DNA from: an uncultured Oscillospiraceae bacterium
GTDB lineage: Bacteria; Bacillota; Clostridia; Oscillospirales; Oscillospiraceae
DNA length: 22,226 bases
Assembly: GCA_934659445.1 (NCBI GenBank)
Contig: CAKUHV010000019.1
Span: forward strand, 1-22,226
Direction: 5' to 3'
Made by a program: the position numbers and the translations under genes. Below the pieces are notes generated by a model. The model did not search any database. It worked only from the letters and a program-made list of their open reading frames with translations, and was not told the origin of the DNA. This document shows, one piece after another, positions 3,851-16,737 of this stretch; the stretch's first letter is position 1, and each line of letters opens with the position of its first letter.

Positions 3851-4348
3851 TCAGCCCTTCCTTTCCTGTAGGGTCCTCAGCCGTTCCTGTACATCCTCCA
3901 CGATCTCGCGGGGGATAAATTCCTTCAAGTCTGCCCCATACCGCGCCATTTCCTTCACGATGGTGGAGCTGAGGTAGGTGTACTTCTCGCTGGAGGCCAG
4001 AAACATGGTCTCCAGATTGTGGTTGAGCTTGCGGTTGATCACCGCCATCTGGACCTCCTGCTCGTAGTCCGAGACGGCCCGCAGGCCCTTTACCACCACC
4101 TTTGCCCCCCTGCGGCGGGCATAGGCGGCCAGCAGCTCGTCGGAATAGTCCACCTCTACGTTGGGGAAGCGCTGGGTGGCCCGGCGCAGCAGCTCTACCC
4201 GCTCCGGCGGGGTAAACATGCCGTGCTTGCTGGAGTTGACCATCACACAGACAATCAGCTTGTCAAAGCAGTTGGCCGCCCGCTTGATGATGTTCAGGTG
4301 GCCCAGGGTGACCGGGTCGAAGCTGCCCGGATAAATGGCGATCTTCAT
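3851..4348 (-). CDS. coaD: Phosphopantetheine adenylyltransferase
   Basis: This 165-residue cytosolic enzyme catalyses the fourth step of coenzyme A synthesis, 4'-phosphopantetheine plus ATP to dephospho-CoA. The nucleotidyltransferase signature GSFDPVTLGH is at 8-17 with T14 and H17 of the T/HxGH motif. KGLR (87-90) and the SSTxxK motif (S127, S128, T129, K132) bind substrate and ATP. Length and motifs match the family throughout. The ATG overlaps the rsmD stop as ATGA, so translation is coupled. The rsmD-coaD pair is a common arrangement in Firmicutes. Confidence 0.97.
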   Translation of the reverse strand: MKIAIYPGSFDPVTLGHLNIIKRAANCFDKLIVCVMVNSSKHGMFTPPERVELLRRATQRFPNVEVDYSDELLAAYARRRGAKVVVKGLRAVSDYEQEVQMAVINRKLNHNLETMFLASSEKYTYLSSTIVKEMARYGADLKEFIPREIVEDVQERLRTLQERKG

Positions 4349-4905
4349 GGATGCAGTCCACTCCCAGCCCGGCGGAACAGAGTCAGCTTGATCTTTCCGT
4401 ACCGGTACTCTCTGCCCCTCTCATAGGGCCATGCCAGGTCGGGCAGCTGCCGTTCCAGAGCACTTTCACAAACTATTATACCATATTCCGACAGAATGTC
4501 AATTGAGGAGATGCTCTCCAGCGCCCGGTCCAGCAGGTCGGCGGCATAGGGCGGATCCAGAAAGATCAGGTCAAATTTTTCCCGGCAGGACTGCAGGAAT
4601 GCCAGAGAATCCCCCTGGATCACCTTTCCCCGTTCTGAGAGACCGGTGGCCTTCAGATTATCGCGGATCAGCTGGGCCGCGTCCCGGCGCTGGTCCACAA
4701 AGGTGCAGTGCTCCGCCCCCCGGGACAGGGCCTCGATGCCCAGCTGGCCGGTGCCGCCGAACAGGTCCAGCACCCGGCGGCCCTCGATGTCGAACTGGAT
4801 GATGTTGAACAGGGACTCCTTCACCTTGTCCGTGGTGGGGCGGGTCTCCATCCCCTTCAGCTCTCCAAGGCGGCGGCCCCTGGCCGTTCCGGATATAACG
4901 CGCAT
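4345..4905 (-). CDS. rsmD: 16S rRNA (guanine966-N2)-methyltransferase
   Basis: This 186-residue Rossmann-fold methyltransferase modifies G966 of 16S rRNA in the small subunit using S-adenosylmethionine. The N-terminal substrate patch RPTTDKVKESLFNII (22-36) is typical of RsmD. DLFGGTGQLGIEALSRG (47-63) is the SAM-binding motif I, and DPPY (117-120) is the N-methyltransferase catalytic motif. The ATG at 4905 has GGAAGG upstream. It overlaps coaD by 4 bases. The MITE-like element at 4955-5108 lies between it and uvrC. Before that insertion the uvrC stop would have been only about 40-50 bases from this start, consistent with an ancestral operon. Confidence 0.95.
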   Translation of the reverse strand: MRVISGTARGRRLGELKGMETRPTTDKVKESLFNIIQFDIEGRRVLDLFGGTGQLGIEALSRGAEHCTFVDQRRDAAQLIRDNLKATGLSERGKVIQGDSLAFLQSCREKFDLIFLDPPYAADLLDRALESISSIDILSEYGIIVCESALERQLPDLAWPYERGREYRYGKIKLTLFRRAGSGLHP

Positions 4906-4954
4906 GGCGGTCCTTCCTTTCTCTTTGGCTTGCCTGGTGGGAGGGTCTTACGGC

Positions 4955-5108
4955 AAATGTCATTTAGTTAAGCAAAACCTGTCATTCCGAGGCAGTGATC
5001 GATGTGTCACTGCCGTGGGAATCCGCATCTAAAACGTTAGAAAAGGCGGATTGCCGCGCCAGTCTGCGGACTGGCTCGCAATGACAAAGCCCTTAGCTTA
5101 ATGACATT
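4955..5108. mobile_element. MITE-like non-coding element, copy 1, with 11-bp flanking direct repeat
   Basis: This 154-bp element has terminal inverted repeats AATGTCATT (4956-4964) and AATGACATT (5100-5108), and nested subterminal repeats TGTCATT and AATGACA. Inside are three arms: GGCAGTGA/TCACTGCC, AATCCGC/GCGGATT and GCCAGTC/GACTGGC. GGTCTTACGGC occurs as a perfect direct repeat on both sides (4944-4954 and 5109-5119), as expected of a target-site duplication. The right copy contains the uvrC stop codon. There is no ORF, so movement would need a transposase supplied in trans. A diverged copy lies at 16512-16663 in the opposite orientation. Confidence 0.85.
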
Positions 5109-5112
5109 GGTC

Positions 5113-6951
5113 TTACGGCTCCTTCTTTTCCTCCGCCGACCGGTGAAAATACTGGTACACCGCCTGGGCGGTGTTTTTCGGCACGATCTTCTCCAGCTCC
5201 TCCAGCGGCGCGGCCCTGACGGCCTTCACGCTCTTGAACGCCTTCAGCAGCTGGGTGCGGCGCTTCTCCCCCACGCCGGGGATCTTATCCAGCTCCGACC
5301 CCTGCACCCGCGCCCTCCGCTGCTGGCGGTTGAACTCGATGGCAAAGCGGTGGGTCTCCTCCTGGATCTGGCCGATCAGGGCGAACAGGGCGGGCACGGA
5401 CTGGATGCCGATCTCCCGTCCGTCCGGGGCCACCAGCGCCCGGGTGCGGTGCCGGTCGTCCTTCACCATGCCGAAGGCGGGGATGTCCAACCCCAACCCC
5501 TCCACCACCCGGCGGGCCACCCGGACGTGCTCCAGGCCGCCGTCAATGAGCAGCAGATCGGGGGCGTCCGCAAATTTTTCGTCCCCGTCCAGCATCCGCC
5601 GGAACCGGCGGCGGAGCACCTGATCCATGCTGGCGTAGTCGTTGGGCCCGTCCATGTCCTTGAGCTTGAACCGGCGGTAGTCCCGCTTCAGGGGCCTGCC
5701 ATCCACATAGACCACCATGGAGGCCACCATGTCGTCCTTTCCGGTGTTGGAGATGTCGTAGGACTCCATCCGCCGGGGGGGCGCGTCCAAATTCAGCATC
5801 CGGCCAAGAGTCTCCAGCAGCCTGTTCTGCCGCTCCTGCCGGGTGGTGGCCCGCTCCACCTCCTCCCGGGCGTTCTGGTTGGCCAGACGGATCAGCTCGA
5901 CCTTGGCCCCCCGCTGGGGGGTGGTCAGCTCCACCCGGCGGCCCACCTGCTGACCCAGCAGGCGCTCCAGAGGGATGTGGTCGGGCAGCTCGCAGGGCAG
6001 CAGGATCTGCCTGGGCAGGCGGCTGCGGCCCACATAGTATTCCCGGACGAAGGAGGACACCGTGTCCCCCTCATCCTCCTCCACCGGCGTCTCCACCAGA
6101 TCGAAGTCCTTGGCGGCCAGATCGCCCCCAATATAGTGCAGCACCACAAAGCAGCTCTTGGCCTCTCCCCGGTAAAAGCCGCACACGTCGGTGTCCGCCA
6201 GGGATCCAGCCACCACCTTCTGCCGCTTGCCCAGCAGCTCGATGGCCCGCAGGCGGTCCCGGATCTGGGCGGCCTGTTCAAAGCGCAGCTCCTCCGCCGC
6301 CCGCTCCATCTCGGCGGTCAGTTCCTCCTGCACCTGCCTGAAGCGCCCCTCCAGCAGGCTCACCGCCTGAGCAACGGCCTGGTCATGCTGCTCCTTCATG
6401 GCGGTACTGCGGCAGTAGCCGTCGCACTTGCCCATGTGGAAATTCAAGCAAGGGCGCTCTTTTCCAATGTCCCTCGGGAACTTCTTCCGACAGGCGGGCA
6501 GATGCAGCGCATCCCGCAAGGCATCTATGATGCCTTGCGTCTCATGCCGCCCGGCATAGGGGCCGAAATATCGCGCTCCATCCTGGGCAGGCCGGTTGGT
6601 CAGGGAAAACCGAGGGTACTCCTCTCTGGACAGACGGATGTACGGATAACCTTTATCATCCTTCAACAGAATATTGTAATGGGGCTGGTGGCGCTTGATC
6701 AGGGAGCACTCCAGCACCAGGGCCTCGAACTCGCTGTCGGCGATGATCACATCGAAGTGATCGATCTGGGCCACCATAGCCCGGGTCTTCTCGTTGTGGC
6801 GGCTCTGGTCCTGAAAATACTGGCTGACCCGGTTTTTCAGCGCCTTGGCCTTGCCCACATAGATCACAGTGTTTCTGGCGTCCTGCATGATATAGACGCC
6901 GGGCTTCAGGGGCAGGGCGTGGGCCTTCTCCTTCAGTTCATCAAATGTCAC
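5113..6951 (-). CDS. uvrC: Excinuclease ABC subunit C
   Basis: This 612-residue nuclease makes both incisions of UvrABC nucleotide excision repair. Residues 1-95 form the GIY-YIG domain for the 3' cut (GVY at 18-20, YVG at 31-33). A four-cysteine group, CRKKF...CLNF...KCDGYC, matches the iron-sulfur ligand region of UvrC. A UVR domain that contacts UvrB follows (about 205-240). The RNase H-like domain for the 5' cut contains SYDISNTG and LLLIDGG. The C-terminal helix-hairpin-helix pair contains KIPGVGEKRRTQLLKAF. The start is GTG, supported by GGGGGG 6 bases upstream. Its stop codon sits inside the right-hand direct repeat of the MITE-like element. I see no separate promoter, so it probably depends on readthrough from ptsH. 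Confidence 0.97.
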   Translation of the reverse strand: MTFDELKEKAHALPLKPGVYIMQDARNTVIYVGKAKALKNRVSQYFQDQSRHNEKTRAMVAQIDHFDVIIADSEFEALVLECSLIKRHQPHYNILLKDDKGYPYIRLSREEYPRFSLTNRPAQDGARYFGPYAGRHETQGIIDALRDALHLPACRKKFPRDIGKERPCLNFHMGKCDGYCRSTAMKEQHDQAVAQAVSLLEGRFRQVQEELTAEMERAAEELRFEQAAQIRDRLRAIELLGKRQKVVAGSLADTDVCGFYRGEAKSCFVVLHYIGGDLAAKDFDLVETPVEEDEGDTVSSFVREYYVGRSRLPRQILLPCELPDHIPLERLLGQQVGRRVELTTPQRGAKVELIRLANQNAREEVERATTRQERQNRLLETLGRMLNLDAPPRRMESYDISNTGKDDMVASMVVYVDGRPLKRDYRRFKLKDMDGPNDYASMDQVLRRRFRRMLDGDEKFADAPDLLLIDGGLEHVRVARRVVEGLGLDIPAFGMVKDDRHRTRALVAPDGREIGIQSVPALFALIGQIQEETHRFAIEFNRQQRRARVQGSELDKIPGVGEKRRTQLLKAFKSVKAVRAAPLEELEKIVPKNTAQAVYQYFHRSAEEKKEP

Positions 6952-16511: not shown

Positions 16512-16663
16512 AAATGTCATTCAGTTCAGGACTTTGTCATTGCGCGCCAGTCCGCAGACTGGCGCGTTGATCCGTTCTCTCAAACCTTGGGGATACAGAT
16601 TCCCACGGCAGTGACATCGGTCACTGCCTCGGAATGACAGGTTTTACTTTACTTGATGGCATT
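16512..16663. mobile_element. MITE-like non-coding element, copy 2 (inverted relative to copy 1)
   Basis: Read on the minus strand it aligns along its whole length with 4955-5108: an imperfect terminal repeat, CCTGTCATTCCGAGGCAGTGA, a matching TCACTGCC arm, a variable middle, GCGCCAGTC/GACTGGCGC, and CAATGACA before the end. The + strand left end is AATGTCATT and the right end the degraded GATGGCATT. I see no flanking direct repeat, so this copy is older or its right flank has been rearranged. It lies at the border of the AT-rich island. Confidence 0.8.
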
Positions 16664-16737
16664 GTGCTGTATTTCGCTGTTCTCTGTAAATATCTTGTCC
16701 CAATTTCAGTTCGTGTTTCCTTGCGGAAGGGATGCCT

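Follow-up and report, generated by a model that had tools for sequence, protein, structure and literature searches.

Between uvrC and rsmD in an uncultured Oscillospiraceae bacterium lies a short sequence, here called e1, that is flanked by two perfect copies of an 11-mer, one of which overlaps the end of uvrC. This raises the question of what e1 is, what kind of enzyme would have placed it there, and where its interior, a pair of hairpins, comes from. We addressed these questions in the whole of contig CAKUHV010000019.1 (GCA_934659445.1; 22,226 nt), hereafter the window, and in related genomes. The features are collected in Table 1.

Table 1. Coordinates of genes, element parts and related features. 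Positions refer to the window unless preceded by a locus handle.
Feature	Position	Strand	Remark
coaD-like cytidylyltransferase gene (PF01467)	3851..4348	-	165 aa
rsmD (PF03602)	4345..4905	-	186 aa
Target duplication, left copy	4944..4954 (10-bp reading: 4945-4954)	.	perfect repeat; offset in related elements
e1, very probable IS4-type MITE	4955..5109	+	155 bp, with a single base beyond AATG and CATT
Left terminal repeat	4955..4972	+	A-AATGTCATTTAGTTAAG; published IS4-subgroup ends
Hairpin unit 1	4981..5023	+	GTCATTCCGA...GTGGGAATC
Spacer separating hairpin units	5024..5048	.
Hairpin unit 2, inverted	5049..5085	-	GTCATTGCGA...GCGGCAATC
Right terminal repeat	5092..5109	-
Target duplication, right copy	5109..5119 (10-bp reading: 5110-5119)	.	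contains uvrC stop codon TAA (5115-5113)
uvrC	5113..6951	-	612 aa, UvrC domains found
e2, second copy of the element	16512..16664	-	worn ends, duplication none seen
Further genes beside transposases	L112:1514-2434, L163:5790-7532, L166:6028-6753, L168:3429-4025, L169:5829-6515, L170:2562-3464, L172:5171-5962, L167:6091-8337
Transposase frame split by a stop	L166:3924-5296		two pieces
Insertions within palindromes	L118:2847-2988, L178:3723-5205
Hairpin pairs whose spacer holds a long palindrome (G208)	L101:1502-1683, L101:1851-2031
Tandem hairpin pairs (G249)	L106:1502-1604, L106:1633-1735

The repeat and the uvrC-rsmD junction

The 11-mer GGTCTTACGGC occurs twice without a mismatch at a start-to-start distance of 165 bp, and it has no further match with up to one mismatch in the window. 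Both copies adjoin exactly the ends of one inverted-repeat element of the form N-AATGTCATT...AATGACATT-N, as the initial annotation had described. It had also called the element a MITE, and indeed e1 is short, has inverted ends, lacks coding capacity for a transposase and is present in two copies in 22 kb, the second, e2, lying in opposite orientation and being identical to e1 in 128 of 157 aligned columns (82%). Folded as single-stranded DNA, e1 forms nested hairpins (z -5.8; none of 200 shuffles was equally stable).

As the duplicated bases include the uvrC stop codon, both neighboring genes are intact, and the initial statement that the insertion preserved uvrC stands. Downstream of uvrC, on the same strand, rsmD is followed by the coaD-like gene, and judged by the spacing of these genes uvrC may once have been co-transcribed with rsmD-coaD. 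An rsmD query in named genomes yielded 344 relatives, of which the best 80 loci were taken (top rsmD 79% identical at the protein level); these belong to Pseudoflavonifractor, Flavonifractor, Intestinimonas and other Oscillospiraceae, all of them species other than that of the window. None of these best 80 of 344 rsmD loci matches e1, and none contains the 11-mer or its 10-mer part, GTCTTACGGC. Both uvrC and rsmD were on the expected strand in 77 of the 80 loci, and their aligned ends were 6-106 nt apart in 48 of the 77 and 144-2944 nt apart in the other 29; the junctions of 14 loci that we printed had short linkers. The relatives' loci, although from other species, thus support a short ancestral uvrC-rsmD linker. 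The junction comparison proposed initially therefore gave a partial answer: the element is absent from all 80 loci, and an exact empty site was not found among them, these other species being without the 10-mer.

Could the repeat be fortuitous, e1 being an old palindromic repeat of this junction that no IS4-type enzyme has moved? It would agree with chance that 5 of 100 shuffles gave two or more matches to the 11-mer (with up to one mismatch, anywhere in the window), that an exact empty site was not found and that e2 has no repeat; yet the two copies adjoin the ends of e1 exactly, sister elements carry different repeats at the same offset and the 80 relatives' loci are without the element, and we consider a chance repeat barely conceivable.

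Nor does e1 look like a working part of the junction, such as an RNA structure or an insulator. Its strong fold and the covarying foot pair of its hairpin units (see below) would suit such a role, but no promoter-like or terminator-like site was seen at 4850-5300, Rfam gave no match in the window at gathering scores and the relatives manage without the element. We regard a present function in the junction as very unlikely, and it would in any case describe a later use and not the origin of e1.

Ends, transposases and full-length relatives

De Palmenaer et al. (2008; PMC2266710) list in their Table 1 an IS4 subgroup within the IS4 family, with ends of the form -AATR--------WTW----, the first base being free, and with direct repeats of 10-13 bp. 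The ends of e1 fit this form (left A-AATGTCATTTAGTTAAG, right C-AATGTCATTAAGCTAAG, both with AATG); at positions 14-16 the left end reads TTA, which fits WTW, and the right end CTA, which fits at the last two of the three positions only. The perfect direct repeat, whether of 10 or 11 bp, is within the tabulated range.

Fifty-nine of 400 genomes of the family match e1 at E <=0.001 (blastn with the whole element, at most two candidates scored per genome), many of them in the interior only. In the 16 relatives' genomes that were searched first, 15 gave no match to the whole of e1 at E <=0.01 and the sixteenth matched over 23-24 bp only. Genome G402 matches e1 only in the last 22 bp (5087-5108; 22/22); at this locus (L112) the matching ends lie 3.6 kb apart, with the gene for a 427-aa transposase between them. 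The protein is assigned to the IS4 family by Pfam PF01609 and NCBIfam NF033592, both above cut-off. The YREK motif was present in 7/7 transposases checked, that of L112 included.

Transposases similar to that of L112 (E <=1e-30) were found in 24 of the 400 family genomes. We examined 24 transposase loci, two being repeats of another. Both ends were present at 12, and eight of these 12 were flanked by direct repeats 9-11 bp long, of which seven were perfect and one matched at 10/11 positions. At the remaining four (L167, L172, L176 and L181) both ends were present with no 9-11 bp repeat. Two genomes from the rsmD list, G014 (of L016) and G016 (of L024), also have related transposases, and a left end matching 16/16 lies beside that of G014 (L179). 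The initial guess of an IS4-like family is borne out by the fit of the ends and by these IS4 transposases, which elsewhere lie between such ends with 9-11 bp repeats.

Because seven of the eight full-length elements with direct repeats have one base between the repeat and AATG at both ends, the better reading of e1 is a 10-bp duplication, GTCTTACGGC, around a 155-bp element, the eleventh base, a G, being repeated by chance. The repeat reported initially is therefore upheld with its lengths amended; the original split, an 11-bp duplication around 154 bp, is a less favored possibility.

The group resembles the IS4 subgroup as described in PMC2266710 in the free first base of the ends, in the length of the duplication and, in the full-length relatives, in a DDE transposase with the YREK motif. 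Unlike members of that subgroup, e1 carries no gene and its interior is a hairpin pair; moreover, 6/8 of the full-length relatives with duplications are 3.4-4.4 kb long, compared to 1400-1650 bp in the table of that paper. Extra genes beside the transposase, as found in the long relatives, recall the IS231 subgroup, for which the same source mentions additional DNA beside the transposase gene, but the ends given there for IS231, CAT-------AA--TAA---, do not agree with those of e1, which itself has no gene. On plasmids the L112 transposase finds its best matches in IS1675, an IS4-like element of Lactococcus plasmids, and these are distant (37.9% identity over 94% of the L112 protein).

The long IS4-subgroup-like elements, with 3.1-5.1 kb between the ends, deserve mention in their own right. 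Beside the transposase they carry a further gene, the products being an SLH-domain protein, a hexapeptide-repeat transferase, two GNAT acetyltransferases, a LysM protein, a relative of that LysM protein, a type IIG-like methylase and one protein without a match above cut-off. PMC2266710 gives such extra genes for IS231 only. At L166 a stop splits the transposase frame in two pieces.

Sister elements and their target sites

Among the loci collected up to this analysis, nine elements combine IS4-type ends with the hairpin interior, namely e1, e2, L086, L087, L103, L117 and L118 as well as L185 and L186, which lie in viral contigs. A strict pattern for the whole MITE was found in 2/400 genomes only and was too strict, as it missed L086, L103, L117 and L118, which were found when mismatches were allowed. 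Plasmid and phage records gave no blastn match to e1 at E 1e-5, and uvrC was not found in viral contigs.

Repeats of 10-11 bp with no more than one mismatch flank seven of the nine elements, e1 being one of the seven. The flanks of the seven core-bearing elements outside the window are unlike those of e1, and six of the seven have 10-11 bp repeats (up to one mismatch) of their own. That the repeats vary between elements identifies them as duplicated target, and the possibility raised initially that the direct repeat belongs to the element does not hold, other copies having other flanks. The repeat of L118 matches at 8/11 positions, and one copy is the reverse complement of the other. In G114 two further MITEs with IS4-type ends are without hairpins, one with a repeat (10/11) and the other without.

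The analysis of targets covered 17 insertions: eight of full-length elements and nine of MITEs, including e1 and one element without a core. Left out were e2, the G114 MITE that has no repeat, and L167, L172, L176 and L181. The flanks were joined and palindromes centered on the duplicated bases were scored against other centers in the same flanks, the duplication lengths being set by hand. The combined p for palindromic targets was 4e-6; no single rank could fall below about 0.005. Seven of the 17 insertions (L103, L118, L185, L186, L169, L170 and L178) are at hairpin-like sites, several of which are long terminator-like hairpins; the IS4-type group prefers such targets. The other ten, e1 among them, are not distinguished from other centers.

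We also considered targeting of a hairpin loop as the cause of the e1 insertion and rejected it, the site of e1 being at background (rank p 0.57).

At L118 and L178 the elements are inserted in palindromes and both target copies are 11 bp long and mutually reverse complementary; those of L178 differ at the middle base only. These copies look as if a quasi-palindrome had been corrected after insertion.

The hairpin pair

The interior of e1 consists of two units in opposite orientation, each of the form GTCATTSCGAR-stem-YGTGGSAATC. The two S positions, which form the foot pair, are Watson-Crick in 51 of 52 distinct units (34 G-C and 17 C-G; the remaining one is G-T), and the change between G-C and C-G is a compensatory, covarying swap, though the 51 pairs are not 51 independent events, many copies being related and the search motifs having fixed the neighboring bases. 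In twelve genomes selected because they contain the interior, the number of matches ranged from 2 to 61 per genome.

A wide spread of the unit through the phylum was considered and rejected: the strict unit pattern was found in 0/299 genomes drawn from the phylum, whereas 59/400 family genomes matched, a comparison of a strict pattern with blastn that gives direction only and suggests a module centered on the family Oscillospiraceae. Literature searches on the unit strings, IS231 with a mobile insertion cassette, IS4 with terminators and MITEs, Faecalibacterium MITEs, shared interiors and Oscillospiraceae MITEs returned nothing on this repeat by title and start of abstract.

Two arrangements were seen along the way. 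In G208 two hairpin pairs, in series with other units, each have a further long palindrome in the spacer, so that one palindrome is nested in another, and in G249 two tandem hairpin pairs are nearly identical.

REP sequences are small imperfect hairpins that occur in inverted pairs and in many copies. The interior of e1 resembles REP/BIME repeats in its small imperfect hairpins, its inverted pairs and its tens of matches per genome, and it is conceivable that the units are moved as single-stranded hairpins by a RAYT, a Y1 transposase, the IS4-type ends being a secondary carrier. The inverted pairs with a covarying foot and the copy numbers in the twelve genomes would agree with this, as would the occurrence of matches to a RAYT model in 41/59 genomes with the element's sequence compared to 134/341 without it (odds ratio 3.5, p 2.7e-5, a hand tally that ignores kinship). 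Only 6/400 genomes, however, reach the cut-off of the model, 17 of 20 RAYT-like loci are without any unit foot, one of the other three having a convincing unit, and G208, rich in copies, has no match to the model at all. Unlike REP/BIME repeats, the pair sits inside transposon-like shells, and a RAYT leaves the 10-11 bp duplications unexplained. We think it highly improbable that RAYT movement of the units, with the IS4-type ends as a secondary carrier, accounts for e1.

The same pair in other shells

In 12 of 73 distinct hairpin pairs for which sufficient flank was available, the surrounding inverted repeats exceeded the 99th percentile obtained from mismatched pairings (means 11.9 and 6.9), and in 61 they did not; two of the 12 (L224) are due to neighboring hairpin units and three are IS4-type. 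Recurrent shells of other kinds were found by reading the flanks. Three such shell repeats were searched in the genomes where they had first been seen, inverted copies being paired within the fetched loci and not for every match listed. The GCAAAATG shell gave 15 pairs, six of them with hairpins and one of those without being a bare 39-bp palindrome; the TATCGGCTT shell gave 17 pairs, with hairpins in 12, half of the interior in two and none in three; and the GGCTGTAAAAA shell gave 13 pairs, 12 with hairpins and the thirteenth masked inside. An 8-bp duplication (at least 7/8) borders 13 of the 17 TATCGGCTT pairs, including 10 of the 12 with hairpins, compared to 14 of 272 mismatched pairings. 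In the GCAAAATG and GGCTGTAAAAA shells we noticed no direct duplications by eye, and made no count. Elements that carry the hairpin pair thus show two different signatures of transposition, and two further shells that contain it show no visible one.

The TATCGGCTT ends and the 8-bp duplications (L272-L301, in G187, G338 and G305) mark a MITE-like family.

One genome, G187, contains the hairpin pair in shells of two kinds. Its cores from the two are 0.68 identical on average, as against 0.72-0.73 for same-shell cores of G187 and G338 or G305, and the cores of the window are 0.80 identical to the GCAAAATG-shell cores of G187, as against 0.64-0.78 to other IS4-shell cores. As to whether shell and core may have descended jointly or been swapped, these identities point both ways.

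Discussion

Based on our data we propose that the sequence at 4955-5109 is very probably a non-autonomous element, a MITE belonging to the IS4 subgroup within the IS4 family, and that its insertion duplicated the target and left uvrC unharmed. A DDE transposase of the IS4 type, with its gene at another place in the genome, would recognize the ends, each about 18 bp long, and would join e1 to the uvrC-rsmD junction at a staggered cut; filling-in of the gaps would then duplicate 10 (or 11) bp. Movement would be by cut-and-paste, as in the IS4 family in general, and the hairpin pair would have entered an IS4-type shell at some stage. In this genome e1 would accordingly have been moved in trans, as supposed initially. 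The perfect repeat, which had been taken as a sign of a recent event, fits a recent insertion and gives no date. Counting against the assignment are e2, which has no duplication, the lack of a clean repeat at 4/12 full-length loci and at L118, the failure to find an exact empty site among the 80 loci, and the absence of a match to the whole of e1 in 15 of the 16 relatives' genomes searched first.

Taken alone, a MITE of IS4 type that duplicated its target at the end of a gene is nothing unusual and adds a further member to a known type. More unusual is that one hairpin pair is found in mobile shells that differ both in their ends and in their target duplications, so that small non-coding elements whose parent transposons seem unrelated have a module in common. 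It is tempting, though we hold it a little less than probable, to see in the hairpin pair a promiscuous module in MITEs of unrelated transposons (IS4-type, TATCGGCTT-type and at least two palindromic shells, GCAAAATG and GGCTGTAAAAA), either as a parasite riding on an active transposase or as an advantage to the MITEs, which could lie, for example, in hairpin extrusion during transposition or in insulation of transcription. If the module moves alone or helps its carriers, it would bear on the origin of MITEs and on why their interiors are kept.
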